Shown: positions 29,567 to 44,674 of the stretch, piece after piece
Layout of the letters: every line of letters begins with the position of its first letter
How positions within the stretch are numbered: position 1 is the stretch's first letter
DNA from: Gammaproteobacteria bacterium
GTDB taxonomy: Bacteria; Pseudomonadota; Gammaproteobacteria; Pseudomonadales; Azotimanducaceae
Assembly: GCA_007694905.1 (NCBI GenBank)
Contig: REEU01000144.1
Coordinates: forward strand, 1-64,000
Length of the DNA stretch: 64,000 nucleotides
Direction of reading: 5' to 3'
Notes under the pieces: model-generated
Databases searched by the model: none
What the model was told of the DNA's origin: nothing
Seen by the model: only the letters and a program-made list of their open reading frames with translations
Program-made: the position numbers and the translations under genes

Positions 29567-30157
29567 TCAATGATCGGAGTTGACGTGAACTTCGAACTCT
29601 TCCGCGAGGCGAGGGGGCGTGAACTGGCCAGGGTGGCGGCCGATCTTGTCGGCATAGAAGGCACGGATGCGGTCCATGTCGGCACCGACGTCGCCGCTTG
29701 GGATGACTGCAGGGCCAAGGCCACCGCGCTTGCGCGCGTAATCAAGGTGGCCAAGGATGATCGGCACGTTAGCCATTCGGGCAATGTGGTAGAAACCCGA
29801 CCGCCAGGTGGTTCCGAGCCGCCGCGTGCCTTCCGCGGGAACCGCCAGCACCAGATCGTCCTGTCCCGCGAATCGCGCCGCGCTTTGCTCGACCAGATTC
29901 GAGCGGACGTCCCGCTGAATTGGAATCCCGCCCAACGCACGATAGAGGCCACCGATCGGCGACTCGAACAATTCGGCCTTGCCCATCCAGTTCAGACGCA
30001 GGCCAAGCGAGCAGGCCATCGCGATCATGAACACGAAATCCCAGTTGGACGTGTGCGGCGCAGCGATCAGGACGTAGCGCCGGTGAGCGGGCGGCTCGCC
30101 CTCGAAGGCCCAGCCAGAGAGACGCAGGAAAGCCCGGGCCAGGTTCGATTTCAACAT
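29567..30157 (-). CDS. PlsC-type 1-acyl-glycerol-3-phosphate acyltransferase family
   Basis: A 196-residue acyltransferase. AAPHTSNWDFVFM carries the HX4D catalytic motif (about 33-38), a GKAELFESP loop follows, and LAVPAEGTRRLGTTWRSGFY is the substrate-binding EGTR block. Family knowledge: transfer of an acyl group to lysophosphatidic acid or a related acceptor at the inner membrane. The protein is shorter than canonical PlsC (about 240) and has no obvious N-terminal TM helix. It is transcribed in the same direction as the system to its right but 135 bases away. Confidence 0.87.
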   Translation of the reverse strand: MLKSNLARAFLRLSGWAFEGEPPAHRRYVLIAAPHTSNWDFVFMIAMACSLGLRLNWMGKAELFESPIGGLYRALGGIPIQRDVRSNLVEQSAARFAGQDDLVLAVPAEGTRRLGTTWRSGFYHIARMANVPIILGHLDYARKRGGLGPAVIPSGDVGADMDRIRAFYADKIGRHPGQFTPPRLAEEFEVHVNSDH

Positions 30158-30292: not shown

Positions 30293-31300
30293 TCAGCGGC
30301 GATTACGGCCACTATGCAGCGCGACGAAGGTGCCGTTGTTCTGTTCACAGATGATGCGCATGAGCACTGCAAATCGCAGCCCGGTTTCCTGCACCGATCC
30401 GGTGTAGTCGAAGATCACAGGAAAGCCTACGGAATGGATGCGGGCCCATGTTCCACCGTCAGGATGCCTGTTCGCCACCCGCACGCGCTCGGCCGCGCCA
30501 TGCAGATCGTGACCGTGCATCTCGTCACCAAGGAAATAGATACTGACGTTGTCGTTGTTGCGGCCGTAGAGCCGGACGGCTTCCATCAGGCCTTCCACGG
30601 GGCTCGAGTTGGAGAAGGGGCGCCAGGTCTGCAGGCGCTGCAGAACAGAGCGGCGGAACGCCGGCGTGTCGTCGATCCACTCGCCCTGCCGACCCCGGAA
30701 CAGATGCGTTCCCATGTCGTTCATCACCTGCATGCCTTTGACCTGCGGGTAGACGTCCAGGATCTCCTCCATGATCTGCATCATGCGCGGCCAGGTGTAG
30801 TTGGTCATGCTCGGTGAGGTGTCGATCACGAACACCACCCATTCGGCGTCGATGGGAATGCCGCCCACCTGTTGATCCATGTGCGCCGGCCGGAAGTCCG
30901 CCAGCAGACGCTGCATCTCCTCCGTGAGCTGCTGCTTGGCCCGCTGCAGTCGTGACTCGAGTTCGGCCATCACCTGGGCGTCGGTGCGGGTGTCGTCGGT
31001 CGCACTTTCGATGCGGGCGAGTTCGCGGCGCAGGCGATCGAGCCGGTCACGCTCGCGGGCAAGCTCCGCTTCGGTTTCACTCACGCGCTCGGAAGTCGTC
31101 CGGGTGTCGTCCTGAATGTCGGCCAGACGCTGCTCCAGGTAGGCGAGGCGGGCTTCCGTGTCGTCCACCACGTCAGCTCGCAGCTGCGGTTCATAGATCT
31201 TCACGATCACCAACAACAGGATGATGGCGCCGAAGCCACAGGAGATGGCGTCCAGGAAGGACAGGCTCAGGGTGTCGGTTTCGCGGCGGCGACGTCTCAT
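30293..31300 (-). CDS. TolR-like one-TM protein with von Willebrand A domain (second paralog)
   Basis: A 335-residue protein: five Arg at the N-terminus, then SLSFLDAISCGFGAIILLLV (about 12-31) with an Asp at the start of the single TM segment, as in MotB/TolR/ExbD proteins. A coiled coil (about 45-130) leads to a vWA domain with VVFVIDTSPSMTN (MIDAS DxSxS), NSSPVEG and YFLGDEMHG. Its start overlaps the stop of the upstream vWA gene (ATGA). A dimer or heterodimer with its paralog, with the channel at 32429, is inferred. Last gene of the putative system. Confidence 0.87.
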   Translation of the reverse strand: MRRRRRETDTLSLSFLDAISCGFGAIILLLVIVKIYEPQLRADVVDDTEARLAYLEQRLADIQDDTRTTSERVSETEAELARERDRLDRLRRELARIESATDDTRTDAQVMAELESRLQRAKQQLTEEMQRLLADFRPAHMDQQVGGIPIDAEWVVFVIDTSPSMTNYTWPRMMQIMEEILDVYPQVKGMQVMNDMGTHLFRGRQGEWIDDTPAFRRSVLQRLQTWRPFSNSSPVEGLMEAVRLYGRNNDNVSIYFLGDEMHGHDLHGAAERVRVANRHPDGGTWARIHSVGFPVIFDYTGSVQETGLRFAVLMRIICEQNNGTFVALHSGRNRR

Positions 31301-32397
31301 GGCCAGTCCTTCGTCGGACTCAGGAAGGTTCCCCCGGTACGCAACGTCAGGTCCCAGTACGCAGGCGCTGCGCGGGGGTCGCCCTCCAACGGAAACAGGA
31401 TGATGTTGAGCGGTACGTTGGTGGGGAGGGTGCGTACGGCCAGCTCGAACAGGCGCACACGCTCACGACCCGAAATCACGCTCCGCGCAGGCGGACTGTC
31501 GCCTACCGTGGGCAGGCTGTCGGTGATCAGATAGACGTTGTCCGCCCTGGGCGCAAGCTCGCGTATGACGCCGAACGCGGCGTGAAGGCTGCTGCCGCCG
31601 CCTGGATCGAGCTGACGCGTTTTCTCGACGGCCTCGGTCAGGCGACCCGCCTCATCGGAGGCGGACAACCAGGTGCCTTCCGTACCCTCGATCAGTGGGC
31701 GAGCCTGGTCGTTGAACAGATACACCTGAAACTGACTGGTCGGTGGGATTTGGGCGGTGATCCAATCGATGGTCGCCAGGATCCGCTGCCACTTGTCCGA
31801 TGACACCTTGCGCTCGAAGGGCATGTTGCGGCGCCGGATCACGTTCACCAGCGTCTCATCGAGCATGCTGGTGGACACGTCCACGAGGACCAGGATACGG
31901 TCTCCGCCCATACGCATACCGGTGAGATAGGCGCGGTCGCCGTCGCCTGTCAGCGCACGGATCTGGCGCCCGGCTTCCTCCCGCGTCATCGCTTCTTCTG
32001 CAAGCTGCTGGGTCTCCGCCTGCAACTGGCGCAGCTCCTCCTGCAGGCGGCGGAGCTCTTCGCGCCTTTCGATCTCGGTACGCTGCCGTTCCGACATGCG
32101 GGCTTCGGCTTCCTGCACTGCCGCGGACAGCTCTTCTGCTTCGGCGCGGGAACTGGCGCGTTGCTCGATGGCTCCAGCGAGGGCTTCCCGGATACGTTCG
32201 AGCTGCCGGCCACTGGAGGCCACGCGGGCCTCGAGGCGCTCGATCTCGGCGCTGTCTTCACGCACGGTGTCCTGGGTTTCCACCGCGATCTGGGCAGAGA
32301 TGATCATGAAAAAAAGGATCACGGCACCAAAGCCACAACTCATGATGTCGAGGAACGACAGACTGAAGACGTTGAACTGGCGTCTGCGACGGGCCAT
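31297..32397 (-). CDS. TolR-like one-TM protein with von Willebrand A domain (first paralog)
   Basis: A 366-residue paralog of the next gene: ARRRRQFNVFSLSFLDIMSC at the N-terminus, membrane segment with the conserved Asp, long coiled coil rich in Glu/Arg (about 45-145) and a vWA domain with LVLVDVSTSMLDE (MIDAS), GGGSSLHAAF and YLITDSLPT. The TM Asp is the proton-carrying residue in MotB/TolR relatives. It follows the channel gene by 31 bases and overlaps the second vWA gene by four. Likely periplasmic vWA domain binding a partner in a metal-dependent way. Confidence 0.9.
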   Translation of the reverse strand: MARRRRQFNVFSLSFLDIMSCGFGAVILFFMIISAQIAVETQDTVREDSAEIERLEARVASSGRQLERIREALAGAIEQRASSRAEAEELSAAVQEAEARMSERQRTEIERREELRRLQEELRQLQAETQQLAEEAMTREEAGRQIRALTGDGDRAYLTGMRMGGDRILVLVDVSTSMLDETLVNVIRRRNMPFERKVSSDKWQRILATIDWITAQIPPTSQFQVYLFNDQARPLIEGTEGTWLSASDEAGRLTEAVEKTRQLDPGGGSSLHAAFGVIRELAPRADNVYLITDSLPTVGDSPPARSVISGRERVRLFELAVRTLPTNVPLNIILFPLEGDPRAAPAYWDLTLRTGGTFLSPTKDWP

Positions 32398-32428
32398 GGC
32401 AATAACCTGCGCGGCGGGCGGACCGCGC

Positions 32429-33226
32429 TCAGTCGGACTTCATGTGGCGGATCAGGTTGTGGTCCACGTAGGTCTCGGTGTCGAACACGAGGCGCTCCTG
32501 GAGTTGCTGCAACTGGTGCACCAGAAACATGACGACGATGCTGATGAGCAGCGCGATAAAGGTGGAGTTGAACGCAACGCCCAGCGACGTGGTGACCCCG
32601 GTGATGTCACCTTCGACCGCGCGGTGGGCCTGTCCGAGCGCCTCGCCGATACCGCGGACAGTGCCTATGAAGCCGACGGACGGAATGGCCCAGGCGATGT
32701 AGCGGATCATGGACAGCTCGGACTCAAGGAGATCGGCCTCGCCGTGACACAGGTCCCGCGTCGCTGCGGAGACGTCCTGCACGTTACGCGTAGATCCGAA
32801 GCGTTCCAGGGCCGCGAGCAGGGCCCGGGGAAGCAGCATCTTCCGCTCTTTGTCCGGCAAAGCCTGTACGTTGCGGGCATAGTCGCGCGTGTCCTCCGGC
32901 AGAATGCGCAACCCCTCCGGGACGTTGACCAGATCACGCTCCAGCAGGGCCCGCTCGCGGATGGAGCCCATGGCCTTGAAGCCCATGATCGAGAATGCCC
33001 ACAGCATCAGGATGAAGCACACCTGCTGCTCGAAATCGCGTACCAGCACGTAAACCGAGCGCTCGGGCACATAGTAGGGATCCTGGCCCATGCGGATTTC
33101 CTGGGCTTCGAGGATCTCGAAGGCGGTGGGGCGGATGTGGCCGGTATAGAGAATCTGGATGACGATGACGATCAGGATCAGGGACGCCACCTGGTAGACG
33201 AATTCGGTCGGAAAATTCTGCTTCAT
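32429..33226 (-). CDS. MotA/TolQ/ExbB-type proton channel subunit
   Basis: A 265-residue inner-membrane protein. Hydrophobic segments lie at about 11-30 and 65-90, then SVGFIGTVRGIGEALG (about 181-196), the conserved MotA/TolQ/ExbB signature in TM3, and TSLGVAFNSTFIALLISIVV (about 210-229) in TM4. A large cytoplasmic loop separates TM2 and TM3. Family knowledge: five such subunits surround a dimer of one-TM TolR-like proteins and convert proton flow into motion. The two TolR-like vWA genes follow directly, so the three probably form the motor. Confidence 0.92.
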   Translation of the reverse strand: MKQNFPTEFVYQVASLILIVIVIQILYTGHIRPTAFEILEAQEIRMGQDPYYVPERSVYVLVRDFEQQVCFILMLWAFSIMGFKAMGSIRERALLERDLVNVPEGLRILPEDTRDYARNVQALPDKERKMLLPRALLAALERFGSTRNVQDVSAATRDLCHGEADLLESELSMIRYIAWAIPSVGFIGTVRGIGEALGQAHRAVEGDITGVTTSLGVAFNSTFIALLISIVVMFLVHQLQQLQERLVFDTETYVDHNLIRHMKSD

Positions 33227-33253
33227 GAGGATCCTTGGCGCGAAAGCCTGGCT

Positions 33254-33472
33254 TCAGATATCGGTGGGGTAATCCACTTCCTGGTCGTAGCGAAGCTGGT
33301 CCGTGGGCAGGAAACCGTCGTCGTCACGGACGACTGACACCGGCGCTTCCCGCTCCTGCGCGGGGATTTCCGGACTGGTCTCAGATTCCACATCAGGCGC
33401 CTCGGCAGGCTCGTCAGCGGTGATCCACGCGAGCGGCAGCAGCAGCAGAGCAAGCAGGATGAGGACGCGCAT
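33254..33472 (-). CDS. Small exported acidic protein of the envelope system
   Basis: A 72-residue product with a hydrophobic signal (residues 1-19, ITADE end) and an acidic mature tail (EAPDVESETSPEIPAQE), ending DQLRYDQEVDYPTDI. GGAG lies eight bases before ATG 33472. It sits 27 bases before the channel gene in the same direction. No family recognised; could be a periplasmic accessory or assembly factor. Confidence 0.62.
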   Translation of the reverse strand: MRVLILLALLLLPLAWITADEPAEAPDVESETSPEIPAQEREAPVSVVRDDDGFLPTDQLRYDQEVDYPTDI

Positions 33473-33544
33473 GGGCAAATCTCCGCTCGGCAGGATCGCG
33501 TCACAGACCATGCCGGCTCGGCGCTTAACCGAGGCTGAAAGGGA

Positions 33545-34198
33545 TCAGCTTCCGGCGTTGAGAAAAGCCTTCAGCTGATTGGCCATGCCGCCGCAGGCCG
33601 AGGATTGTACCCGGGCAATGAGCGGTACGGGGACGATCACTGCAGGCATGTAGGAGGTTCCTGAGGCGTCGGTTGAAATCTTGCCGACCTTGCTCATCGA
33701 CCCCAGGTCCCAGATCGACGCCTCGTAGGACGAATCCCGATCCCAGGTCACGAAACCGAAGCAGCCGCCGCCGGTGGGCGATACGGCGCAGGTCATGGAG
33801 CCGGAGGTGTCGTTGGTGCTGGTGGAGCCGTCGAGCCAGACGAGGTAACGCACGCCGGCGGCCTGAAGGCGCTCAGCAACAAGGTTGTTCGACATCAGTC
33901 CGGGCAGGTCGCGAATCTCGATGGGGGCGGTGCGGGGCTCGAACCAGGGGAACAGGGTGTCGACGAACTCCCGTTCGGGCAGCACCGAGATGCGATTGCG
34001 GCCGCTTGCCAGGCTGTTGCCGACGCAGGAGACGAAGTCTGGTTCCGTTTCGTAGCCGTTGTTGTGGCGACGGCCGAGGACCACCACGTTGTCTGTGTCA
34101 CGCATACCGGTCGCTCCTGATCGAACCTCCTCCACCGTGGAGCTGACGCATCCCGCAAGCAGGAACAGCGTAAAGGCTGGGAACAGGATCTTGAACAT
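33545..34198 (-). CDS. Lipoprotein of the envelope system (217 aa)
   Basis: A 217-residue lipoprotein with lipobox LFLLAGC (Cys at about 17). The chain contains VLGRRHNNGYETEPDF, an LVAERLQAAGVRYLVWLDG segment like LpoB/DUF-type lipoproteins that bind peptidoglycan enzymes or secretins, and SSACGGMANQLKAFL at the end with paired Cys. ATG 34198 is preferred over 34204 because AGGAG is then seven bases upstream. It overlaps the end of the neighbouring lipoprotein gene region, indicating translational coupling. Function unknown. Confidence 0.75.
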   Translation of the reverse strand: MFKILFPAFTLFLLAGCVSSTVEEVRSGATGMRDTDNVVVLGRRHNNGYETEPDFVSCVGNSLASGRNRISVLPEREFVDTLFPWFEPRTAPIEIRDLPGLMSNNLVAERLQAAGVRYLVWLDGSTSTNDTSGSMTCAVSPTGGGCFGFVTWDRDSSYEASIWDLGSMSKVGKISTDASGTSYMPAVIVPVPLIARVQSSACGGMANQLKAFLNAGS

Positions 34199-34200
34199 GA

Positions 34201-34893
34201 TCATTCTCCTCGGGGTGAGGCGTCGAACGCGGCGAGTTCGCGCTCGAGCCAGGGGCGGAGCTCTTCCTGCCTCGGAAATCCAATGGCCAGGAATGCCCCC
34301 GCATCACGCAGGGCGTTGATGGCGGCATCGCGTACAGCTGCTTCGGCGGTTTCGAGCATCAGACTGCGCGTCTTGCCGTAAGCGGTGACAGGCCAGCTTG
34401 CGATCAAGTCGCCGGACGGCTCGAGCAGGCGCATCTCATAGCGAATCCAGACTTCGAAGAAGTTGCTGCGGGTCTGGAACGGAATGGCAAACTGCATTTC
34501 CTTGACTTCCGGAACGAGCACTGCATGCAGGGACGTCGGGATCTGCCCCGGTTCGATGCTGTCGACTTCCACGACGCGCTCGAACATGCCGGGGAGCACG
34601 GCCAGGAGCATGTTCACCTGGGCGACACCGATGTCGATGGCCCAATCGCCGCGCTGAGGGACGGACTCCTCGAGCCGGAAGCGCCGGAACTCTTCGGTGA
34701 AGTGAACGCCGAGCTGGAGCGGCATGGGGTCGACGACTGGGGAGGGGAAGTCGCCGCTGGTGACCTGAACGGCTGTCGTGCCGCAGCCGACCAGAATCAG
34801 GCTCAGCAGCAGGAGGGCGCCTGTGGACGCATAGGGGCCGCGGGACTCACTCCCAGTGGTCAATGCAGTTGTCGAAGGAACCCGGTACTGCAT
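34201..34893 (-). CDS. Lipoprotein of the envelope system (230 aa)
   Basis: A 230-residue lipoprotein: after a polar lead, LLSLILVGCG gives a lipobox with Cys at about 37. The mature chain has EFRRFRLEESVPQRGDWAID, a strand-rich core and RYEMRLLEPSGDLIASWPVT, resembling lipoproteins that act as periplasmic scaffolds; the family is not recognised. GAGG precedes ATG 34893. Next to a second lipoprotein whose start lies inside its stop region, so they are likely coupled. Confidence 0.77.
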   Translation of the reverse strand: MQYRVPSTTALTTGSESRGPYASTGALLLLSLILVGCGTTAVQVTSGDFPSPVVDPMPLQLGVHFTEEFRRFRLEESVPQRGDWAIDIGVAQVNMLLAVLPGMFERVVEVDSIEPGQIPTSLHAVLVPEVKEMQFAIPFQTRSNFFEVWIRYEMRLLEPSGDLIASWPVTAYGKTRSLMLETAEAAVRDAAINALRDAGAFLAIGFPRQEELRPWLERELAAFDASPRGE

Positions 34894-34993
34894 GCTGGAT
34901 CCTCGTCAGGCATGAACCGCGACGCACCCGCGGCCAGCCCTAACCCGAACTTAACACTTCCCAGGGTCGCGCCCAATGGGCGTGATCTGAAGA

Positions 34994-36397
34994 TCAGGCG
35001 CCAGGATGCACCACGATGGGTGTGAGGCGGATCCGTTCGTTGATGAGGACCTCGTCTCCTGGCGCAAGGTGGACGGCCCTTTCCACGGTCACGCCGTCCT
35101 GGAGGATCTGAGCGTTGACCTCCGGATCGAGCCGAATGCCCAGTTCTTGGACCCGGATAGTGCAGACGGGTTCCGAGGTGCCGGGGAGCGCTAGCGTTCC
35201 TTCACCAGCAGGTCCTCCGATGGTTAGCACAGCGCTTCGAAGCGGCCAGGCCTCATGGCCAAGCAGCAGGTGGGTGGGTCGTGTGGTCGCCGCGGTTGGC
35301 GCCTCGGATGGAGGCCTTGCTGGCTCAGCGGGCCTTGGCGGTGAGCTCGAGTCTGCTGACTTGAGCGTCTGATGTCCACGCCGATTGGGCAGGCGCGTCA
35401 CGAATGCCAGCCGCTCACCCTCGCGGCGCACCTCGGCCAGACAGGCCAGAGTACCGCGACGCACCGCGTCATCGGTCTCCAGTTCCACGGAAGGCTCCTC
35501 GAGCAGCCCGTTCAGGGTCCTGACCAACCCGGGGAGAGCGGCCATGCGCGCATCCAGGCGGATGACAGTCTGCCCTTGCGACAGTAAGCGCAGCCGTTCC
35601 GTAAGCTGTTCATAGCGGGGGCGCAGCCGCTCCACGAGGGCGTCATGGTGGAGGTTGACGCGGAAGCTGTTGCGGCCCGTGTCCAGTTCCAGCATAGCCT
35701 CGCCATCGCGCTGGAGCTGGATGAGCCAGCCACCGAGATTGTCATACAGCCGCTGTTCGCTGCTTGCTTCGTGAAGTGGGTCGAAGCGCGTTTCACGGAT
35801 GAACGCATCTGCAATCAAACCCACCATGGTGTCCTGGAGTCCGAGCAGCGAGGTGGCTGCGGTGTCATCGACGCGATCCCGCTGCAGCTCGTCGCCGGCA
35901 GTGACGCGGGTGATCACGGTGCGGTGGAGCTGTCCGCTGACATGCAGCACGGCGCCTGGGCTGCTGCCATCGGCAGCCACCGCCGCGACGGCGAGATCCA
36001 CGAGGCCGACGGATTTGAATGGACATTCGCGTGCAATCCCGAGCAGGAGTGCGAGCTGGTTGCGATCGAACTGTCCTGGAACGGCGAACACCACCTCGTC
36101 TGTGCCGCCGTCCGGGCTACTGGTTGCCAGGGACCAAAGATCCAGCAGATGGGCATAGGCCAGATCCGCGACGGTGCGCGCCCGCGGCCCGGGTTGGGGC
36201 AGGGTGTCGGTGGACAGGCGTGACCAGAACTGGGTGTGGGTGTGGCGTGGATGCAAGCGCGCTTCGCTGCGCGCCTGCATCCCGAGCAGCAGCCGATCCC
36301 CCTGCAGCAGCGCGTAGCCCGGGCTTTCAGCCAGATGCTGCGCTTCGTTGCCGATGCGCACCCCGGCGTCGTTCAGTTCGATCACGTTCAGGGCCAC
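34994..36397 (-). CDS. Actin/Hsp70-fold-like protein with C-terminal FHA-like domain
   Basis: A 467-residue cytoplasmic protein. The first part has an actin/Hsp70-type layout: VVFAVPGQFDRNQLALLLGI (about 103-122), then VGLVDLAVAAVAADG and GAVLHVSGQLHRTVI, a second phosphate-type strand. After a Pro/Ser-rich linker (about 345-375) the end (about 377-465) reads like an FHA-type beta sandwich: ILQDGVTVERAVHLAPGDEV and LTPIVV. GTG 36397 is chosen because GGAG lies five bases upstream; GTG 36403 overlaps that site. Possibly an ATP-dependent cytoplasmic scaffold that couples to the membrane PEGA-SUMF1 protein encoded just upstream. Inference only. Confidence 0.62.
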   Translation of the reverse strand: MALNVIELNDAGVRIGNEAQHLAESPGYALLQGDRLLLGMQARSEARLHPRHTHTQFWSRLSTDTLPQPGPRARTVADLAYAHLLDLWSLATSSPDGGTDEVVFAVPGQFDRNQLALLLGIARECPFKSVGLVDLAVAAVAADGSSPGAVLHVSGQLHRTVITRVTAGDELQRDRVDDTAATSLLGLQDTMVGLIADAFIRETRFDPLHEASSEQRLYDNLGGWLIQLQRDGEAMLELDTGRNSFRVNLHHDALVERLRPRYEQLTERLRLLSQGQTVIRLDARMAALPGLVRTLNGLLEEPSVELETDDAVRRGTLACLAEVRREGERLAFVTRLPNRRGHQTLKSADSSSPPRPAEPARPPSEAPTAATTRPTHLLLGHEAWPLRSAVLTIGGPAGEGTLALPGTSEPVCTIRVQELGIRLDPEVNAQILQDGVTVERAVHLAPGDEVLINERIRLTPIVVHPGA

Positions 36398-36399
36398 GT

Positions 36400-38475
36400 T
36401 CACTCCAGATAGCGGGCAATGCGGAAGCCGACATCTGCACGGCCCTCGCGGCCGAAGTCCCGGAATGTCAGGCGCAGTTCCGTGAGGGTCCCGTGCATCC
36501 AGCTCGCACCACGAATCACGTGGTAGTCGCCGCTGTCGGGGCCCAGCGGGTCCACCACGTTCGATGGCAGATCCTCACTGGTTCCGGCGTAGAAGTCGTT
36601 CACCCATTCTGCCACGTTGCTGCCGAGATCGTGGATGCCGCGATGATTGGGTTGGTAGTTGGCGACCGGTGCCGACACGATGCTGCCGTCTGTGTAGCCG
36701 AGCAGCGTACGGCCGAGCAGATTGGCGATGGAGCGGTCGGCGTAATTGCCATGACGTTCCGGGGGCGGCATGTCGTTACCCCAGGGGAAGCGTAACTGGC
36801 TGCCGTCGTCCTTCACCCGTGCCGCCCACTCCCACTCTGCTTCAGTAGGCAGCCGATAGCCCGTGGATTCAGGGTCGAAGCCCACGACGCGATTGTTCCG
36901 CACCAGATACGCCTTGGGCAGCCCGTCCTGTTCCGACAGCCAGTTGCAGAACAGGGCCGCTTCCTGCCAGGTGATGTTTACGACCGGCTGACGATTGCCG
37001 TTGAGGCTGTGGGACTCCCACTCGCCGGAGTTGTGGCCCGCTGCGAACTGTCGGAATTGGGCGTTGGTGACCTCCGTGACGGCGAGATAGAACGGTCGTG
37101 TCAGGGTGACCTCACGCAGCACCTCGTTCGCACGGCGCCCGGGCTCGCGCCGGGACGCGCCCATGGTGAAGTCGTCGGGACGCAGGAGGCGCATCTCCTG
37201 TCCGGCGGCGGTTTCGATGACGGGTCGAATGGCGGCCCTGCGCGCTTCCTCGACGGTCTGCAGGGAGAGGCTTATTTCCTGGGGGAAACCGGGCCGGGGC
37301 GTCACGCTGGTGCGGTAGGGCACGTAGCCGTCTTTGCGTATCTCGATCTGATGGGCGACAGCCGGCAGCGACAGCGTCTGATTGGCGCGGCCTTGTCCGC
37401 GACCGTCGACCAGAACCTCGGCATCCTCGGGTTGGACCGCGATGCGGACGTCACCCAGTTCTGCGGGGAGATCGACCGCAAGGCGTTGTTCTTCACCGGA
37501 AACGATCCGGACCTGGCGCCGAATCCGGCTGTAACCGGGTCGGAACAGGTCCACCTGGTAGTCGCGGCCGGGTCGGAGCTGGACCTCCACGGGCGTGCGG
37601 CCCTGAAAGTTACCGTCGACGGTCACCGTGGCGCCTGCAGGACGGGAGCTGACCATAAGCAGTCCATCGGCGCGTTCGAGCCGCACCGGATCGAGCACCT
37701 GGTCCTCGCCCGCCACGACCTGCACCTGCGTCTGCCAGGCCTTGTAGCCTTCGAGCTTGGCGGTGAGCGTGTGCGCCCCCTGCAAAAGCTCGAATTCGGC
37801 GGGCGTGGTGCCAACCACGGTGCCGTCGTCGAGACTGATCTCGGCGCCGGGGGGCTCGGTATCCAGGCGGAGCTCTGCCCATGCCGGTGCGAGCTCCACG
37901 TCTATGCGCTGCGTGACGCCGCGGCCTTCGACTTCGAACTCCTGTTGTTGTGGCAGGTAGCGATCGGCCGCGACGCTGATCTGGTAGGTTCCGGGTTCCA
38001 GCTCGAGGTCAGCGAGTGGCGTGGCGCCGACGTCTGCACCGTCGACCCGTACCCGGGCGCCGGCGACGGGCTCGGAGTTGATGCTGATCAAGCCCGGCAG
38101 CGGTCGGAACTCGAACTCGAACCGGGACTCCCCGCCGCGTGCCACCCGGATCTCCTCGTCGAGGGGGTGGTAGCCCTCGAGGTCGGCCTCGATTCGGAAC
38201 GTGCCTGGGCGCATGAGTATGCGGCCCCCCACGGGCAATGTGATGCCACCGCTTACCCGGACGGACTGGGCATCCGGAGTGAACTCCAGCAACACAGGTC
38301 GCGAGGTGAAGAGAAAAAGCGCCACCATGGCGAGCCCGGCAAGCACCGCGAAGGAGATAACCGTGGCCGGACGCCAGCGCGTCGCGGCGCGCCACTCCTG
38401 AGGGTCCGAGGGCCGGAATACGGCGGGTTCGATGATGTCTTCATCAGCCTCCGGCCGGGAGCGCTCGTCGTTCAC
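36400..38475 (-). CDS. Membrane protein with PEGA repeats and SUMF1/FGE-like domain
   Basis: A 691-residue protein: cytoplasmic N-terminus, one TM helix (about 36-57), four to five PEGA-type beta domains (for example INSEPVAGARVRVDG, LDTEPPGAEISLDDG, SSRPAGATVTVDG; about 100-410), then an SUMF1/formylglycine-enzyme-like domain (about 430-690) with TEVTNAQFRQF, PVVNITWQEAALFCNWL, YRLPTEAEWEWAAR and GSNVAEWVNDF. The catalytic Cys pair of true FGE is absent: the RGGSFMC segment is RGASWMH here. So it probably binds rather than oxidises. GTG start with GAGGAG nine bases before. Adjacent stop/start with both neighbours. Confidence 0.9.
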   Translation of the reverse strand: MNDERSRPEADEDIIEPAVFRPSDPQEWRAATRWRPATVISFAVLAGLAMVALFLFTSRPVLLEFTPDAQSVRVSGGITLPVGGRILMRPGTFRIEADLEGYHPLDEEIRVARGGESRFEFEFRPLPGLISINSEPVAGARVRVDGADVGATPLADLELEPGTYQISVAADRYLPQQQEFEVEGRGVTQRIDVELAPAWAELRLDTEPPGAEISLDDGTVVGTTPAEFELLQGAHTLTAKLEGYKAWQTQVQVVAGEDQVLDPVRLERADGLLMVSSRPAGATVTVDGNFQGRTPVEVQLRPGRDYQVDLFRPGYSRIRRQVRIVSGEEQRLAVDLPAELGDVRIAVQPEDAEVLVDGRGQGRANQTLSLPAVAHQIEIRKDGYVPYRTSVTPRPGFPQEISLSLQTVEEARRAAIRPVIETAAGQEMRLLRPDDFTMGASRREPGRRANEVLREVTLTRPFYLAVTEVTNAQFRQFAAGHNSGEWESHSLNGNRQPVVNITWQEAALFCNWLSEQDGLPKAYLVRNNRVVGFDPESTGYRLPTEAEWEWAARVKDDGSQLRFPWGNDMPPPERHGNYADRSIANLLGRTLLGYTDGSIVSAPVANYQPNHRGIHDLGSNVAEWVNDFYAGTSEDLPSNVVDPLGPDSGDYHVIRGASWMHGTLTELRLTFRDFGREGRADVGFRIARYLE

Positions 38476-40035
38476 TTAGATGCGCTCCTCGGTACGGATG
38501 ATCACCGGATTGCCGGAGCCATCCGCGGCGACCCGGAACTCGAGCCGCACGTCGCGGTAGCCTGGGCGACTGCCGGTTGCGGTGTAGAGCCCGGGCCGCA
38601 GTTCGATGCGGCGTTCCTCGAAGCTGCCGAGCCGTGCCACGCGCAGGATCGTCACCTCGGTGGCGCCATCGGAGCGCAGTCGCACCGTGACCGGTGCGGC
38701 AGCGACTTCGAGCAGTTGCTCGAGCTCGGCGACGTGTGCTGCGAACCCCGGCCGCGGATGCTCGACTGCACGCAACTCCCGCAGCAATGAACGAGCGTCA
38801 GCCAGCACCACGTCCTCGCTGAGACGATCCGGTTGGCCCAGCGTCTCCAGCATCCGCTCCTCGAGGGCGGCGAGACGGCGCGCCTTGCTGCGGCCCTGCC
38901 GTGCGAAGCTCAAGGCCCCGTCCAGCTCCAGCGCCTCGTCGTAACGCTGCGCGGCCTCGGTCCACTGTTCGTCCTCCATCAGTGCTGTGGCTTCCTGACG
39001 CAGCGACTCGATGCGGCGGTCGGTGCTGGCCTGTTCCACCAGCAGCAGGCCTTCCTCGGCTTCCGATGACCCGGAGCGTAACCGAAGTGCCTCGCGAAAT
39101 GCGTCACGCGCCGTGTCCAGGTGACCCGATGCCAGCGCGCCATAACCCCGCGACAGCGCAGCATTGAAGGCTCGGGTGACGATCCGACTGCGGGCTTCGG
39201 CCAGACCCTGGCGGGCGGCCACGGTCTCCGCATCCAGCTCCAGGGCGGCTTCGAACTGGGTGCGCGCAGCTTCGAGCTCACCCGCCGCCAGGTGTCCTTC
39301 GCCATCGCGGACAGCGCTCAGAACAGCGTCGAGGACCTCCGCTCGCTCCAGTCCTCGGCGCGCCGCACTCGAATCCGGACGGATGGCCAGCGCAAGTTCG
39401 TAGGCATCCCGCGCCTCGTCGCTCAGGGCGTCCTCGATCGCATCGAGGCCACGCTGCAACGCGGACTCGTAGGCATCTTTGGCCGTGCCCTGGAGCTCCT
39501 TCAGAGCGCTCACCGCGTCCTGATAACGCTGCCGCGCTTCGTCGAATCGCTCCTCGATAAAGGCGTCGTCGCCGCTGGCAGCGAGCGCACGGGCGGCGGC
39601 GAGACGGTCGGCGCCCCAGCGCTCGACGGCGCGGGATTCGAGATCGTCCTGCAGATCGAGCAGGCGCGAGATCAAATCCTCCACTGCACGCCGTTCCCGC
39701 TCCAGACGACTCTGCTGATAGGGCGCTACCGGGTCACCGTTCTCCTCTTCAGCCTGCTGGGCGGGTCCAGCTTCCCGCCTGCGTTCGCGGGCGCCGGGTG
39801 GGGGGCTTTCGGCACCCGTGGCGATACGTTCAAGGTCCGGTCGCAGGGCGTTGGGGAGCATGACGAGCAAGCCGCCGAACAGCAGGCCGAACAGGACTAC
39901 TGCGCTCCAGGTGAGGAGGCGACGGCGGCCATCGGACGCGGCCGGCGTGAGTTCGGCTTCGCGTGTGAGGGCGACCTCCGCCGGTGCGATGGTCTCGAAG
40001 TCGTCCTGGGCGTTTTCGGTCTTGCGATCAGTCAT
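38476..40035 (-). CDS. One-TM protein with periplasmic TPR repeats and PEGA-like end
   Basis: A 519-residue protein with cytoplasmic N-terminus, a TM helix (about 43-62), a charged stretch, and TPR-type helical repeats from about 120 to 400 (AALELDAETVAARQGLAEA, ALRLRSGSSEAEEGLLLVEQ). The last about 90 residues (RSDGATEVTILRVARLG, ELRPGLYTATGSRPGYRDV) form a PEGA-like beta domain as in the downstream PEGA-SUMF1 protein. Stop and next start are adjacent, so they are co-translated. Likely periplasmic scaffold of the envelope system. Confidence 0.85.
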   Translation of the reverse strand: MTDRKTENAQDDFETIAPAEVALTREAELTPAASDGRRRLLTWSAVVLFGLLFGGLLVMLPNALRPDLERIATGAESPPPGARERRREAGPAQQAEEENGDPVAPYQQSRLERERRAVEDLISRLLDLQDDLESRAVERWGADRLAAARALAASGDDAFIEERFDEARQRYQDAVSALKELQGTAKDAYESALQRGLDAIEDALSDEARDAYELALAIRPDSSAARRGLERAEVLDAVLSAVRDGEGHLAAGELEAARTQFEAALELDAETVAARQGLAEARSRIVTRAFNAALSRGYGALASGHLDTARDAFREALRLRSGSSEAEEGLLLVEQASTDRRIESLRQEATALMEDEQWTEAAQRYDEALELDGALSFARQGRSKARRLAALEERMLETLGQPDRLSEDVVLADARSLLRELRAVEHPRPGFAAHVAELEQLLEVAAAPVTVRLRSDGATEVTILRVARLGSFEERRIELRPGLYTATGSRPGYRDVRLEFRVAADGSGNPVIIRTEERI

Positions 40036-40148
40036 GGCGATGTCGGCGACGCTGCAGTCAGGTTCGGCAGGGGCGGCAGCTTACAATGGCTGCGCGGCCC
40101 TTGCCTCACCGGGTCAGGTCGGGTTGGACCCGCCCGTAAACCATCCGT

Positions 40149-41375
40149 TCAGCCGTCCCCGGCCACCGGCAGCCCGACGTCGGAACGATAGAGCTCCTCG
40201 AGGATCTCTTTCCACTGGTCGTACTGACTGTCGACCGTACCGGTCAGAGTAATCGTCCGATCATCGAGTTCGATGACGCTGGGCGTGATTTCCTGCTCCA
40301 GGGAGTTGGCGAGCTCGTTCAGGGTCAGGGCGTGAAGTTCCGCCTCCTGACGGCGTGCAAGCCCGTCACGCACCATGTAGGCGCCCCCCATGATGCCGAG
40401 ATGTCCGGCCGCCCGGCCATAAGGGCTGTCGCTCTGGCTGGCCGCGTAGATACCGCCGGCCACCGCCAGGGCACCCATGATGGTCCGGTTGCGAGCAGAC
40501 TCGCGCATTTCCCGCAGCGCCACCGCTTCCCGATAGGTGTGGCGCCGATATTCGGTGTAAGGGGTGTCCATCTCCGCTACAAATTGCCCGTAGTGGGCGT
40601 CGAGCGTGTCGATGAACAGGTGCTCCCGATCCCGGACACGGCCGATCCGGGACATCATCGGATCATTCTCTGCGGGCAACCGCACGAGCTCGAAGCGGCC
40701 ATTGCGCCGCTCCTCCAGATAGCCGTCGAAGGCCTCCGGCGCGAATTCGCGCGCGAAACGCATGCGGCCGATCTCGCGGGTTTGTTGAATCTCGGCGGCG
40801 CTCATGCGTTCCCGATAGGCCAGCATATCGTTGGCGATTTCGTTGTAGAGCTGCTGGAACGGATCGAGCCCTGCCGGCGCGACTTCGTCGTAGGCGTAGC
40901 GGCTGGCCTGGTAGCCATACTCCCGCTTGAACCAGCGTCGGCCGCTGGCATCGGCGACTTCGACTTCCATTCTGAGGGTTTCACCATTCGATTCCAGCAG
41001 CTTGGCGTCCACTGTCACGTCGACCGCGTGGGTGTGCCGCGGGACCACGCGCACAGCACCCCAGTTGCCGGTGGATTCCAGCGTGTCCTTGAGCAGGAAC
41101 GGCATGAAGCGCGCCTCCGCCCGCCGTACCTCAGGCAGAATGCCGTCACGTTCTCTCGCGCGCCATTCTTCTGGGATATTGGGCTCGAACAGCTGGATGC
41201 CCACGTCGAGAAGCAGTGCTTCCGGAATGGGTTCACTGGCCTGACGGGGCGGCGTAGTGTCCACCCGCTTGACGGTCTGGGACACGCAGCCGCCGAGCAG
41301 TCCGGCCACGAGCAGCAGGCCGAGAATGCGCGCGCCGATCGCGCGCGGGAACAAGTCGTGCTGGCGTACTTTCAT
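40149..41375 (-). CDS. Lipoprotein of the envelope system (408 aa)
   Basis: A 408-residue lipoprotein: LLVAGLLGGC lipobox (Cys about 27). The mature chain is helical and acidic, with ASRYAYDEVAPAGLDPFQQL and MSAAEIQQTREIGRMRFARE, a Gly/Ala-rich hydrophobic patch (about 310-345; AVAGGIYAASQ...AGHLGIMGGAY) that may contact membrane, and a BON-like end (TLTGTVDSQYDQWKEILEEL). The start at 41375 is chosen for the lipoprotein signal; the frame is open far upstream, overlapping the next gene on the same strand. Family not recognised. Confidence 0.75.
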   Translation of the reverse strand: MKVRQHDLFPRAIGARILGLLLVAGLLGGCVSQTVKRVDTTPPRQASEPIPEALLLDVGIQLFEPNIPEEWRARERDGILPEVRRAEARFMPFLLKDTLESTGNWGAVRVVPRHTHAVDVTVDAKLLESNGETLRMEVEVADASGRRWFKREYGYQASRYAYDEVAPAGLDPFQQLYNEIANDMLAYRERMSAAEIQQTREIGRMRFAREFAPEAFDGYLEERRNGRFELVRLPAENDPMMSRIGRVRDREHLFIDTLDAHYGQFVAEMDTPYTEYRRHTYREAVALREMRESARNRTIMGALAVAGGIYAASQSDSPYGRAAGHLGIMGGAYMVRDGLARRQEAELHALTLNELANSLEQEITPSVIELDDRTITLTGTVDSQYDQWKEILEELYRSDVGLPVAGDG

Positions 41376-41397
41376 CGCTGCCACTCCTGCATGCTGT

Positions 41398-42642
41398 TCA
41401 GCGCCGGCCCGCAACGTAACGTCGATACTCATCCCAGAGCTTCTCCCGAAGTTCCGGATCGGTCTCGGCCATGGCGGCTTCCCGCAATTGCCGTGCCACG
41501 ACGTCATCGTTGGCGCCGTCTCCGATGTCCTCCGGAACGGGGAGGACCTCACCGCCGCCGACAGAGCCTCTGCTGGTTCCGCTGCCGGACTGGCCATCAG
41601 GCTGCTGCTGGCTGCTGGGTGCCGGAGGCGGGGGCACGGGGCGGCGTCCGGCGGTGTCGCGGCCGCCGCGGCGATCCGCTTCACCTTCGTCGCCGCCATC
41701 GCTGCGCCCGGCGGCTTCGATGGTCCCAGGGGCGTTGCCTCGGCGGGCGAGGATGGTGGCGCGTTCATCGAGAATACGGCCATCGAAGTCGCCCATGGCG
41801 TCGGCAAGAACCCGTTCGAGCTCTGCGTGGCGCTCGGCGGCAGTCTGGCTGCCAGCACCGCTTCCAGCCTCGTCTTCTGCGCCGGATGCGTCACCATAGG
41901 TTTCTTCCGACGTGGGGGCACGGCCGCTTCCTGATGCACCTGGCTGGTGCCAGGGGCCCGCTGCGTCCTCGCCACCGGCGCCGCCCCCGGCAGCGACATC
42001 GCCGCCAGGCTCAGTGCCCTCGGCCGCAGCATCCGGGCTCTGCCTGGATGAACCACCCCCGGCGATCATGTCGTCCAGGTCACCCGAAACCAGGTCGTCG
42101 AGATCGCCCTGCGCGTCGCCATCGCTTCCGGCCGGCCGGCTGCCAGCCGGTGCGCCCATGCCGCCGTCGGCGCCGTCTCCTTCGCTGGGGGCCTCACTGC
42201 TGCGGCTGCGCGCGGCCGAGCGCCGGAACACCTCGATGGCCTCGGCGAGGACCCCATCGTCGTCGACGGATGCGCCGGCTCCGGCGCTTCCGTCACCGCC
42301 TTCCGCAGCGCCGGCATCAGCCGTCTGGCTCCCGGCATCGCCCGGTTCCCCCCCGGTTGGTGACTGAGCGCCATCGGAAGAAGCCGTCGGCTGCGAGGGC
42401 TGCCCGGCTGGCTGCTGCTGCGGCGACGGCTGTCCTGCTGACGGCGAGGACGGGCTCGGCGGCTGGCTCGATGGCGCAGAAGGGCTCGACGGCGGCGACG
42501 GGCTCGAAGGCGAGGGCGCACTGGGCGGACTCGGCGGCATCGGGCTCGACGGACCGGAATGGCTCGGGCTCTGGCAACCGGCGAAGCTCAGGGCGCCCAG
42601 CAGCAGGAGCGCGGCCTGAAGGATTCGTGGGCGGGTCGACAT
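41398..42642 (-). CDS. Low-complexity Ser/Pro/Gly-rich lipoprotein
   Basis: A 414-residue lipoprotein with lipobox LSFAGCQ (Cys about 22). Residues about 25-75 are almost only Ser and Pro in SPSSPSPP-type repeats; about 75-290 are Gly/Ser/Asp/Ala-rich with DLDDLVSGDLDDMIAGGG. The C-terminal 100 residues regain normal composition: RHAELERVLADAMGDFDGR and ETDPELREKLWDEYRRYV. GAGGAGGT lies just before ATG 42642. Looks like an extended spacer or wall-crossing linker with a small C-terminal binding domain. The long open frame on the opposite strand is composition-driven. Confidence 0.72.
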   Translation of the reverse strand: MSTRPRILQAALLLLGALSFAGCQSPSHSGPSSPMPPSPPSAPSPSSPSPPSSPSAPSSQPPSPSSPSAGQPSPQQQPAGQPSQPTASSDGAQSPTGGEPGDAGSQTADAGAAEGGDGSAGAGASVDDDGVLAEAIEVFRRSAARSRSSEAPSEGDGADGGMGAPAGSRPAGSDGDAQGDLDDLVSGDLDDMIAGGGSSRQSPDAAAEGTEPGGDVAAGGGAGGEDAAGPWHQPGASGSGRAPTSEETYGDASGAEDEAGSGAGSQTAAERHAELERVLADAMGDFDGRILDERATILARRGNAPGTIEAAGRSDGGDEGEADRRGGRDTAGRRPVPPPPAPSSQQQPDGQSGSGTSRGSVGGGEVLPVPEDIGDGANDDVVARQLREAAMAETDPELREKLWDEYRRYVAGRR

Positions 42643-42758
42643 GGGCACCTCCTCAATACTCCGAGCCTGCCAGAGGGCAATGAATGACCCCTGAACGTCG
42701 GACTCCACGTCATTGGACCCGCTTGCGAACGTCAGGTTTCGCAGTCCGTGAACGAGTG

Positions 42759-44189
42759 TCAATGATCGTCGCTGCGGGCCGTTTCCTGGCGAGGCTCGGT
42801 GTAATAGACGAATCGGTGACGATACTGCATGCCCTCGGTTGCGGCAGGTTGGTCGTCCACGAATCGGGGACGGAACCGGGCTGCACGTACGGAGCGCCGC
42901 AGGCGGAAGTCGAGCAGTCCTTCCGGTTCGGCGTCGGTGATGTCGAGATTCCGGAGTCGACCACGGTCCGTGACGTCGTACACCATGTCCACGAATCCTT
43001 CGTGGGTGCGGATGCCCTCGGTCCACGGTGGCGGATTCGGTGCCGGCGGAATCGGGAACACCAGGGCCGTGGGCGCTCCGAACAGCGCTTCGACCTGCTC
43101 CTCGGGTGCGCCTGAGCGGCGCAGCAGCTCCCGCGCCTGGCCATAGGTGGCCATGGCCTGATTCCATTTGTCGAACAGCAGGTACCAGTCTCCAAGTTCG
43201 ACGAGTGCTTCCACCTGTTCGTCGGTTTCGATGTCCGGGTGGTCGAGCTGCAATCTGACGCTGCGGACCAGGGCGCGCTCGCCGACGCCGTAGGGATTCA
43301 GGGTGTGGCGCTGCTGCATGTGCAGATCACGATCAGGGGGGGGGCCTCCGGAGGTGATCCGGAACGAGGGCTCCTCCCGTCGCGCCGCCGCAGCCGGTGG
43401 ATAGCGCTCCATGCGGTAGGTCTTGGCAAGGCGCTGCAGCGGCTCGACAAGACGAATGTCATCATTGCCGTAGTGTTTCTCGACGATCTCGACCGCGCGT
43501 TCGTAGAGCCCGCGCGCGCTCAGGATCGCGCCGGTCCGCTGATACCACTCCGCCATCCGGTAAAGGGCCGGCAGGATCTCAGGAGCATCCTCGCCAAGCT
43601 CGCGTTGCCTGACGTAGTACGAGTACTCCTGCAGCTGCGTGGCTTCCTGCCACTCGCTGCGCAGGGCGTGAAGTTCCGTGATGCGGTCCAGGTAGGTCAG
43701 CTGGCTCGAGTCATGCAGACCCTGGTTCATGCGATTCACGTATACGGCCTGACCGTAGTGTTCGAGCGCTTCCTGATAGTCGTCGAGACCACGGTAGCTC
43801 GCGCCAATGCCGGCGAGGGCGGTGACGTTGCGCTGGTCCCAGCGGCCATGTTGCTCGCGGACGAGATCGAGGGCCTGCTCCCAGGCGCTCAGCGCCTCCC
43901 GGTATTCGCCGGTTTCCTGTTTGATCCGGGCGAGCGCAAACAGCGCATCGATGCTGTTACCGCTGCCGCGAGCGTCTCCGAACAGCTCCAGCGCAAAGCG
44001 ATCGGGCCCCTCGGGCTCCCCATGTTCTCCGCTGCCCATGCCTTCCGGACCGGCGACTGGCGCGTAGGGGCCCGCTGCCGGTGGCTGGGACGGATCAGCA
44101 GCGTCACTGGTCTCAGCCAGGGCTGCGGGTACCAGCATCCCTTGTGCAAGGAGAAGGACGAGGGCGGGGCGAATTTGATGGCGTATCAT
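42759..44189 (-). CDS. Exported TPR protein with TonB-C-like C-terminal domain (first gene of the system)
   Basis: A 476-residue protein: signal peptide (1-25, AALAE end), acidic linker, TPR-type helices (about 75-330; ALFALARIKQETGEYREALS, ALEHYGQAVYVNRMNQG) and a C-terminal domain (about 395-460) with GFVDMVYDVTDRGRLRNLDI, then RSVRAARFRPRFVDD, which follows the TonB C-terminal fold (strand-strand-helix-strand, RFxP and a variable-side beta strand). GGAG lies seven bases before ATG 44189. In TonB/TolA such domains cross the periplasm and bind outer-membrane partners; here it may receive force from the channel at 32429. Divergent from tusA. Confidence 0.83.
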   Translation of the reverse strand: MIRHQIRPALVLLLAQGMLVPAALAETSDAADPSQPPAAGPYAPVAGPEGMGSGEHGEPEGPDRFALELFGDARGSGNSIDALFALARIKQETGEYREALSAWEQALDLVREQHGRWDQRNVTALAGIGASYRGLDDYQEALEHYGQAVYVNRMNQGLHDSSQLTYLDRITELHALRSEWQEATQLQEYSYYVRQRELGEDAPEILPALYRMAEWYQRTGAILSARGLYERAVEIVEKHYGNDDIRLVEPLQRLAKTYRMERYPPAAAARREEPSFRITSGGPPPDRDLHMQQRHTLNPYGVGERALVRSVRLQLDHPDIETDEQVEALVELGDWYLLFDKWNQAMATYGQARELLRRSGAPEEQVEALFGAPTALVFPIPPAPNPPPWTEGIRTHEGFVDMVYDVTDRGRLRNLDITDAEPEGLLDFRLRRSVRAARFRPRFVDDQPAATEGMQYRHRFVYYTEPRQETARSDDH

Positions 44190-44409: not shown

Positions 44410-44673
44410 ATGAACGATTCCTCAGAACCGGCATGGCGGCTCGAAGCCGACGATGCGCTCGATACCCGTGGCTTACGTTGCCCTGAGCCCCTGATGCTGC
44501 TGCGCAACCGTATGCGCACCCTGGCGCCCGGTACGCTGCTTTATGTCGTGGCCACGGACCCGGCGTCGGTGCGCGACTTCGAGCAGTACAGCCGCTTTCT
44601 CGGTCACGCCATCCGTGCGCGGGAAGAGGCGGCAGGCGAGTTTCGATTCCTGTTCTGCAAAGGACAGCGATGA
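44410..44673 (+). CDS. tusA: TusA-family sulfurtransferase
   Basis: An 87-residue two-layer sandwich protein with the sulfur-carrier motif LDTRGLRCPEPLMLLRNRM (Cys of CPxP at about 24). Family knowledge: relay of persulfide sulfur for tRNA thiolation or molybdenum cofactor, or as a general carrier. GGAG precedes ATG 44410, which decides against GTG 44404. The following gene begins one base after the stop, implying co-transcription. Confidence 0.9.
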   Translation: MNDSSEPAWRLEADDALDTRGLRCPEPLMLLRNRMRTLAPGTLLYVVATDPASVRDFEQYSRFLGHAIRAREEAAGEFRFLFCKGQR

Positions 44674-44674
44674 C

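Follow-up and report, generated by a model that had tools for sequence, protein, structure and literature searches.

The subject of this study is a block of twelve genes at positions 30293–44189 of a 64,000-nucleotide stretch of DNA (the window; positions 1 to 64,000 of contig REEU01000144.1, assembly GCA_007694905.1) from a gammaproteobacterium of the Azotimanducaceae. As a first reading made from the letters alone (the sequence-only reading) had noted, there are twelve open reading frames (ORFs) here, all on the minus strand and separated by intergenic gaps of −4 to 116 bases, with 4-base overlaps in three pairs and one pair that abuts. We name them g1 to g12 in order of transcription; the starts of g2 and g3 (42642 and 41375) lie within longer mechanically called ORFs, and g9 probably starts at 33472, with 33511 as an alternative. 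That reading saw in the block a proton-driven system, and it is plausible that, as it proposed, the parts connect the cytosol with the inner and the outer membrane. Flagella, TonB import, Tol-Pal, gliding and Zorya all run on proton-driven 5:2 motors.

The g10 gene (32429–33226) encodes a channel of the MotA/TolQ/ExbB type, as had been proposed: its match to PF01618 (E 2.6e-13) is above the curated Pfam cut-off, the sole solved structures matched by its profile are those of TolQ (E 0.0014), and it scores 24 bits against the NCBIfam TolQ equivalog, for which the cut-off is 221. A gapless alignment places g10 residues 147–256 on TolQ 103–212, and g10 Thr189 and Thr222 fall on TolQ residues 145 and 178, which we take to be the pore threonines. 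Both are present in all 129 distinct rows of the g10 alignment. Here and below, residue counts refer to distinct rows, which are still interrelated; matches above E 1e-40 were dropped, and fragments below 300 (g11), 280 (g12), 230 (g10) or 500 (g5) residues were excluded.

The two genes that follow, g11 (31297–32397) and g12 (30293–31300), had been described as encoding TolR-like vWA proteins with a transmembrane Asp, and this description holds. Each protein has one hydrophobic segment, which is N-terminal and contains Asp17, then a coiled-coil-like stretch and a vWA-type domain, and the two are paralogous (hhalign E 8.6e-26). Asp17 is kept in 120 of 120 g11 rows and 113 of 113 g12 rows. The metal-dependent adhesion site (MIDAS; DxSxS) is kept almost as strictly, with Asp173, Ser175 and Ser177 of g11 in 119, 120 and 120 of 120 rows and Asp160, Ser162 and Ser164 of g12 each in 113 of 113. 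The Pfam vWA family (PF13519) is matched above its cut-off by g11 (1.2e-6), whereas the g12 match (0.0048) does not reach it. Searches of the PDB with the g11 and g12 profiles gave essentially coiled-coil matches and no vWA domain; the evidence for vWA is therefore the Pfam result together with the MIDAS motif. The Pfam, NCBIfam and PADLOC scans covered ten of the twelve window proteins (all except g2 and g9), and no ExbD/TolR-family match was found among the ten. Because the channel threonines, the axle Asp and both MIDAS motifs are essentially invariant, the block very probably encodes a proton-driven motor of the 5:2 type with two different vWA-bearing axles, a predicted mechanism that is well supported by homology and residue invariance.

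Could g10 instead be part of a known Tol, Exb or Mot set, as the sequence-only reading had allowed? This condition, under which that reading would have fallen, does not hold: the genome's TolQ, TolR and Pal, like three MotA/PomA-type proteins of the flagellar kind, are all above curated cut-offs and lie on other contigs. In a tree of the channels, the g10 proteins cluster apart from the genome's nine other PF01618 proteins (98/94, long branches); only this grouping is used here, as the tree has a number of long branches, for which the tool cautions that joins may be false.

Two further genes would supply an inner-membrane scaffold. The larger, g5 (36400–38475), has a hydrophobic segment at residues 35–63, PEGA modules in four stretches (Pfam, 3e-57) and a full FGE-sulfatase/SUMF1 domain (1.1e-38) that the sequence-only reading missed; that reading had also named two PEGA membrane proteins, and Pfam bears this out for g5 but not for g4. 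Among solved relatives of the SUMF1 part the formylglycine-generating enzyme (FGE) is best (2.1e-29), PorK of the type IX secretion system (T9SS) follows at 1.1e-22 and PvdO is also matched, and against GldK g5 scores 109 bits, with a cut-off of 350 (NCBIfam). The catalytic cysteine pair of FGE is, we assume, human Cys336/Cys341; the g5 columns aligned to these cysteines hold His661 in 76 and Glu666 in 83 of 110 rows, and Cys is not among their four commonest residues. A catalytic, formylglycine-generating role for g5 was rejected on these grounds. The neighboring g4 (38476–40035) is a protein with TPRs (Pfam) and a hydrophobic segment at residues 39–65, and in many relatives a kinase domain is fused to it (below).

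On the outer-membrane side the window has, as had been stated, four lipoproteins and a small exported protein. None of the recognised lipoboxes has Asp at position +2: 0 of 58 in g2 (41398–42642; 64 sequences examined, 6 without a simple-pattern lipobox), 0 of 72 in g3 (40149–41375; 94 examined, 22 without), 0 of 44 in g7 (34201–34893; 51 examined, 7 without) and 0 of 44 in g8 (33545–34204; 49 examined, 5 without). In E. coli, lipoproteins without Asp at +2 are sorted to the outer membrane, and by this rule all four look outer-membrane-directed. The Ser/Pro/Gly-rich g2 is poorly conserved outside a C-terminal motif, DDDIVARQLREAA..E.DPELREKLWEEYR.Y.

The g3 lipoprotein combines long helices with a domain of the FlgT/PelC/CsgG/TolB-N type. 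Its AlphaFold model (mean predicted local distance difference test score, pLDDT, 77; built on 18 sequences) is matched best by FlgT in VIA-align (Z 10.8 over 133 residues, root-mean-square deviation (rmsd) 3.9), and further matches are the LPHT ring (10.3), DUF330 (9.9), PelC (9.9) and CsgG (9.3); the match to the N-terminal domain of TolB (Z 7.4–8.0) is near chance level, as models without a clear match typically peak at Z 7–8 according to the tool's own note. The top Foldseek matches are HP0492 (E 1.4e-4) and TolB (E 1.9e-3). Several of these structural matches build rings, and PelC is a dodecamer according to the title of its structure entry; the g3 model resembles ring lipoproteins of the FlgT/PelC/CsgG kind.

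The remaining exported proteins are less readily placed. Both g7 and g8 are conserved lipoprotein families, g8 strongly so (37 invariant columns across 15 sequences); the PDB profile search gave no solved relative for g8 and chance-level ones for g7. The idea that g7 and g8 share the g3 fold was discarded, as the hhalign alignment is confined to the signal-peptide region. The small exported protein g9 (33254–33472) has a free C-terminus of the form [FYW]P.[DN]I, and 111 of 113 sequences end in DI or NI. For g1 (42759–44189), an exported protein, the earlier description as a TPR protein with a TonB-C-like end is borne out in its first half (TPR_12, 4.7e-22); the TonB_C match (0.0044) is under the Pfam cut-off, though a profile match supports it, in that the g1 profile finds (E 1.2e-12) the terminal part of a TonB_C protein encoded elsewhere in this genome beside ExbB-like genes, a protein that itself matches PF03544 at 9.5e-20.

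On the cytosolic side, among 107 g4 ORFs in 106 loci, 42 have an N-terminal, Hanks-type Ser/Thr kinase domain fused to them, 4 have a kinase in an adjacent gene, 56 have none and 5 run off the end of a contig. The kinase family PF00069 was above cut-off in all six fused ORFs tested, and the catalytic-loop motif is present in 30 of the 42. In 16 of 80 loci chosen by similarity to g10 (below), a second kinase and a PP2C gene lie beside the block (14 upstream of g2, 2 downstream of g12), and an OmpA-domain protein is encoded downstream in 29 of the 80; one example each of the second-kinase, PP2C and OmpA calls was confirmed by Pfam. The window's g4 is among those without a kinase, and the kinase and phosphatase genes of relatives could not be seen from the window alone. 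A search for a dedicated kinase in the window strain gave eight matches to a relative's kinase part, the best-scoring 33% identical and none on the window's contig, and a kinase acting in trans is possible there.

The product of g6 (34994–36403) is predicted to be cytosolic, with no hydrophobic segment and no TonB match (Pfam). Its predicted model (pLDDT 89) superimposes on DnaK with Z 29.6 over 324 residues (rmsd 3.1, 14% identity), so the Hsp70 part of the earlier description as an actin/Hsp70-like FHA protein stands in the model, but FHA goes undetected in the window's g6: PF00498 is matched in 2 of 17 aligned members, the window copy not among them. The C-terminus of g6 is FHA-like in some relatives and may be a degenerate FHA. 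Hsp70 has Gly-rich phosphate and adenosine motifs; in an alignment inspected by eye, the corresponding stretches of g6 keep no Gly-rich motif, and an active Hsp70 ATPase was rejected for that reason. A phosphorylation switch is likely in many relatives, judging from these gene associations, but this likelihood does not extend to the window strain, in whose g6 FHA goes undetected and the ATP motifs are missing, and whose g4 is without a kinase.

How widely does the block recur? A search with the g11 protein covered 38 genomes, among them that of the window, and gave a match in 26; within the window's family, 23 of 25 match. The 26 loci of these matches, several of them cut by contig ends, hold profile matches to g1 in 17, g2 in 20, g3 in 20, g4 in 21, g5 in 23, g6 in 23, g7 in 22, g8 in 21, g9 in 23 and g10 in 23; g11 is in all 26 (distantly in L064), and 24 have a g12 ORF of their own, the count being 24 and not 25 because the g12-profile match in L062 is a cut g11 ORF. 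The order in most of the other genera in this set is g1 g2 g3 g4 g5 g9 g10 g6 g11 g12 g7 g8, with g7 and g8 elsewhere in some; the window's genus differs from the others of its family in that g6, g7 and g8 (33545–36403) stand ahead of g9 and g10.

A wider set, from a scan of named genomes, comprises the best 80 of at least 587 g10 relatives, in loci of which many are cut by contig ends and 37 are 20 kb or longer. Within the 80, g5 was found in 75, g6 in 76, g9 in 77, g11 in 74, g12 in 63, g4 in 64, g3 in 59 and g2 in 54, and the rarer g1, g7 and g8 in 20, 21 and 20. The 37 longer loci hold g2 in 33, g3 in 36, g4 in 36, g5 in 37, g6 in 36, g9 in 36, g11 in 37 and g12 in 33, with g1, g7 and g8 in 16, 15 and 15. 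Save for these last three genes the order is conserved in the 80 loci. All carriers in this set are metagenome-assembled genomes, mostly labelled Gammaproteobacteria, Woeseiaceae, Pseudomonadales or just Proteobacteria; single carriers labelled Desulfobacterales, Thermoanaerobaculia and Rhodospirillaceae may be mis-binned or mis-named. One duplicate contig pair (L050, L149) is included in the total of 135 neighborhood loci.

In a sample of 274 genomes of the class (the window's own included), an axle search with the g12 profile, which also catches g11, matched 21; in 18 of them the E value is about 4e-84 or lower, and G124, G127 and G135 match only weakly, through a g11-type or distant protein. 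Matches to g3 were found in 19 of the 274, 18 of these among the 21 axle genomes, and to g6 in 11, all among the 21; the co-occurrence with the axle has Fisher p values of 3.7e-24 (g3) and 2.6e-14 (g6), uncorrected for shared ancestry. The channel g10 (E <= 1e-20) is present in 25, including all 21 axle genomes, and the four matches outside these (E 5.6e-28 to 2.8e-21) stand on the same weak level as that of G127. In a phylum sample 16 of 398 genomes match, 13 of them in one family outside the class. Loci were taken from seven of these 13 genomes; six carry g2 g3 g4 g5 g10 g11 g12 in order and have no match for g1 or g6–g9, and the seventh, of 6.2 kb, has g10–g12. Since the out-of-class family keeps those seven genes in order, they are, by this comparison of loci, the core, and the rest are accessories.

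With content and order thus conserved on recurrence among relatives and in distant families, the block is more than a chance grouping, and the recurrence of a core in distant genomes, which the sequence-only reading had named as support, was found, though most sampled genomes are without the block. The set of twelve that it proposed is right for the window's lineage, and too large as a general set. A second, minimal copy (g2 g3 g4 g5 g10 g11 g12 and a weak g9) was seen in L060 (G012:C60:36000-55900), in a genome that also has a full block, L058. Plasmid-borne spread was considered and set aside, the one match, in a plasmid of Rhizobium, being weak (30% identical across 71% of the query).

The novelty claimed for the system must be qualified, because the motor core was already predicted in PMC12204202 (Mol Biol Evol 2025), where TolQ-like channels are paired by AlphaFold 3 with heterologous TPH-vWA proteins that bear a pore Asp (Fig. 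4c/d legend); that prediction was seeded from Idiomarina, concerns Proteobacteria and is of unassigned function. The block fits the type as given in that motor section, its channel gene adjoining a heterologous TPH-vWA pair with no tolR or exbD, with exceptions in L108, L110, L114, L115 and G250 (below). The same section mentions no lipoproteins, PEGA-SUMF1 protein, kinase, PP2C, Hsp70/FHA protein or g9, all of which occur in the block or its relatives. No description of the whole gene set was found in the literature searched, outside whose scope lay most subscription papers and bioRxiv preprints, and by word search vWA is absent from the main text of a review and of a research article on 5:2 motors. 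"Undescribed" is therefore wrong for g10–g12 and seems to hold for the remainder, the gene set beyond the motor core appearing to be new.

From the gene content and order, the invariant motor residues, the lipoprotein sorting signals, the predicted folds of g3 and g6 and the kinase/PP2C association in relatives, we infer a trans-envelope machine driven by the proton motive force, made of a motor, a scaffold, an outer-membrane load and, in some lineages, a phospho-switch, that would exert a regulated force on the outer membrane (probability about 0.6); the pentamer:dimer assembly and its rotation, what the vWA heads bind, the ring, the switch and the physiological job are all part of what is inferred. 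In this machine g10 would form the inner-membrane channel pentamer, and g11 and g12 a heterodimeric axle with its Asp-bearing helices inside the pore. The periplasmic vWA heads with their metal-dependent adhesion sites would replace the peptidoglycan-binding or TonB/TolA part of other motors. Proton flow would turn or cock the axle, and the heads would pull on or ratchet against an outer-membrane lipoprotein load, in which g3 may form a ring, while g2 would be a tether, long and flexible, that bears a conserved hook. The inner-membrane scaffold would consist of g5 (PEGA stalks and a SUMF1 head) and g4 (TPRs). In kinase-bearing lineages engagement would probably be switched by phosphorylation, as the g4 kinase domain, kinase and PP2C genes and the Hsp70-fold/FHA g6 accompany the motor in many relatives. 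The most likely job would be a regulated outer-membrane force, or its anchorage to the wall, in effect Tol-like work on demand.

We also entertain, more tentatively, a separate class of envelope machine, a kinase-gated rotary motor in which the MIDAS of the two vWA axles grip and release lipoprotein parts and phosphorylation times the application of proton power to the outer membrane. The gripped parts might be an FlgT/CsgG-type g3 ring, the g2 tether and perhaps the DI/NI end of g9 as a MIDAS ligand. This version is slightly weakened by the 12 of 42 fused kinases that are without the catalytic-loop motif.

A number of observations weigh against the trans-envelope machine as proposed. Four related loci (L108, L110, L114 and L115) keep g11 without g12, so the axle pair is not universal; in the same four, about 4 kb or more separates g5/g9 from g10. 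The channel of G250 lies on a separate contig, G222 carries g3 but neither axle nor channel, and the g3 match of G135 contains five stop codons. A g3 relative also stands alone in the window's own genome, on contig C39, with no other block gene found nearby; it lies at G000:C39:17179-17961 (L195:8907-10256; E 1.8e-67), amid ORFs that by eye are TonB-receptor-like. With regard to the switch, 56 of the 107 g4 ORFs, the window copy included, have no kinase (the g4 of L119 is long, but without a kinase match it was counted as having none), the 12 fused kinases without the motif that was sought may be inactive, and FHA went undetected in the window's g6, which also lacks the ATP motifs of Hsp70. 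Finally, the block is a minority trait, present in 21 of the 274 genomes sampled from the class and in 16 of the 398 from the phylum.

Four other explanations bear on the same genes. A surface-motility or adhesion machine, in which the motor drags surface adhesins as in AglRQS-Glt of Myxococcus or GldLM of Flavobacterium and the vWA heads and TPR/FHA proteins do the coupling, seems unlikely. AglQ and AglS are of the ExbD type, whereas g11 and g12 are vWA axles without an ExbD match, and the FHA-like end sits on a soluble Hsp70-fold protein (g6) that lacks the hydrophobic segment and TonB match of a GltG (FHA, transmembrane segment and TonB); the block is set apart by these domains and by PEGA-SUMF1, not by direct sequence comparison. 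No barrel or adhesin family was matched in the window proteins scanned, nor a Glt barrel seen in the window block, though relatives were not specifically searched for barrels. The make-up is nonetheless parallel, with one TolQ-like and two TolR-like proteins, TPR, FHA and TonB-C parts, lipoproteins and exported proteins (subunit types in part from PMC3169522), and in the account of PMC3169522 the Myxococcus G1 cluster has TPR, FHA together with TonB, and a small protein that is exported. The same account places the Agl/Glt core also in gammaproteobacteria and, as a point against this explanation, in bacteria without documented gliding. A second Tol-Pal-type system, unregulated and stabilising the outer membrane only during division, we consider rather improbable: the genome already encodes TolQ, TolR and Pal on other contigs, the ten proteins scanned gave no match to TolR, TolA or Pal, and kinase and phosphatase genes recur in relatives. 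What the two share is a MotA/TolQ-family channel whose profile finds only TolQ among solved structures (E 0.0014), outer-membrane lipoproteins, a TolB-N-like domain in g3 (at the near-chance Z of 7.4–8.0) and, downstream in 29 of 80 loci, an OmpA-domain protein.

A secretion machine resembling T9SS PorKLMN, with the motor powering the export of a product, or its assembly, by way of an outer-membrane ring of g3 and g5, would likewise combine (as we understand PorKLMN/GldKLMN) a proton-driven motor with a SUMF1-type ring protein, and it could draw on the PorK (1.1e-22) and GldK (109 bits against 350) matches of g5 and on the CsgG/PelC-type domain of g3. The block differs in its MotA/TolQ-family channel, its vWA axles and a SUMF1 domain that is PEGA-linked on an inner-membrane anchor; moreover SUMF1 domains are widespread, FGE is the best solved match, GldK scores far under its cut-off and no GldL, GldM or GldN match was found in the ten proteins. 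Neither an outer-membrane channel nor a recurring cargo came to notice, though no search was aimed at them, and we regard this explanation as quite improbable. A Zorya-like anti-phage defence system would use a 5:2 motor too (ZorA-ZorB; PMC11890865, as given there), but is very improbable indeed, since PADLOC returned only generic TPR and coiled-coil matches and no Zorya for the ten proteins scanned, on which ground a defence role was rejected, the block is steady in the window's family (g11 in 23 of 25 genomes) and similar housekeeping-type neighbors recur near it. The control set also has a likeness elsewhere. In the threonine-phosphorylation pathway of the type VI secretion system (T6SS; PpkA-PppA-Fha, TagQRST), a Ser/Thr kinase, PP2C, FHA, a SUMF1 domain and a lipoprotein form an envelope control set; the block and its relatives share this set, which here accompanies a 5:2-type motor, and the ten window proteins gave no T6SS family match.

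The trans-envelope machine would thus be a motor with integrin-like heads in place of wall- or receptor-binding parts. Its gene set was met in numerous metagenome-assembled genomes of gammaproteobacteria and in a single family beyond the class, many relatives carry kinase and phosphatase genes along with it, and the exact residues and genes given here make the job and the switching of vWA envelope motors directly testable.

Outside the block proper, a locus in G127 (L194:8516-12567) has a distant channel/vWA pair, its vWA protein TolR-like, that sits among two PP2C genes identified by Pfam, suggesting that vWA motors linked to phosphatases form a wider family. Upstream of g1 in the window (44543–45656) lie ORFs that by eye are gamma-glutamyl-cyclotransferase-like and EpmC-like; similar ORFs recur, the first kind in 15 and the second in 14 of the other 76 loci, and this recurrence hints that the block may occupy an old chromosomal site. 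Just downstream of g12, on the same strand, an ORF at 29567–30157 is acyltransferase-like by eye.

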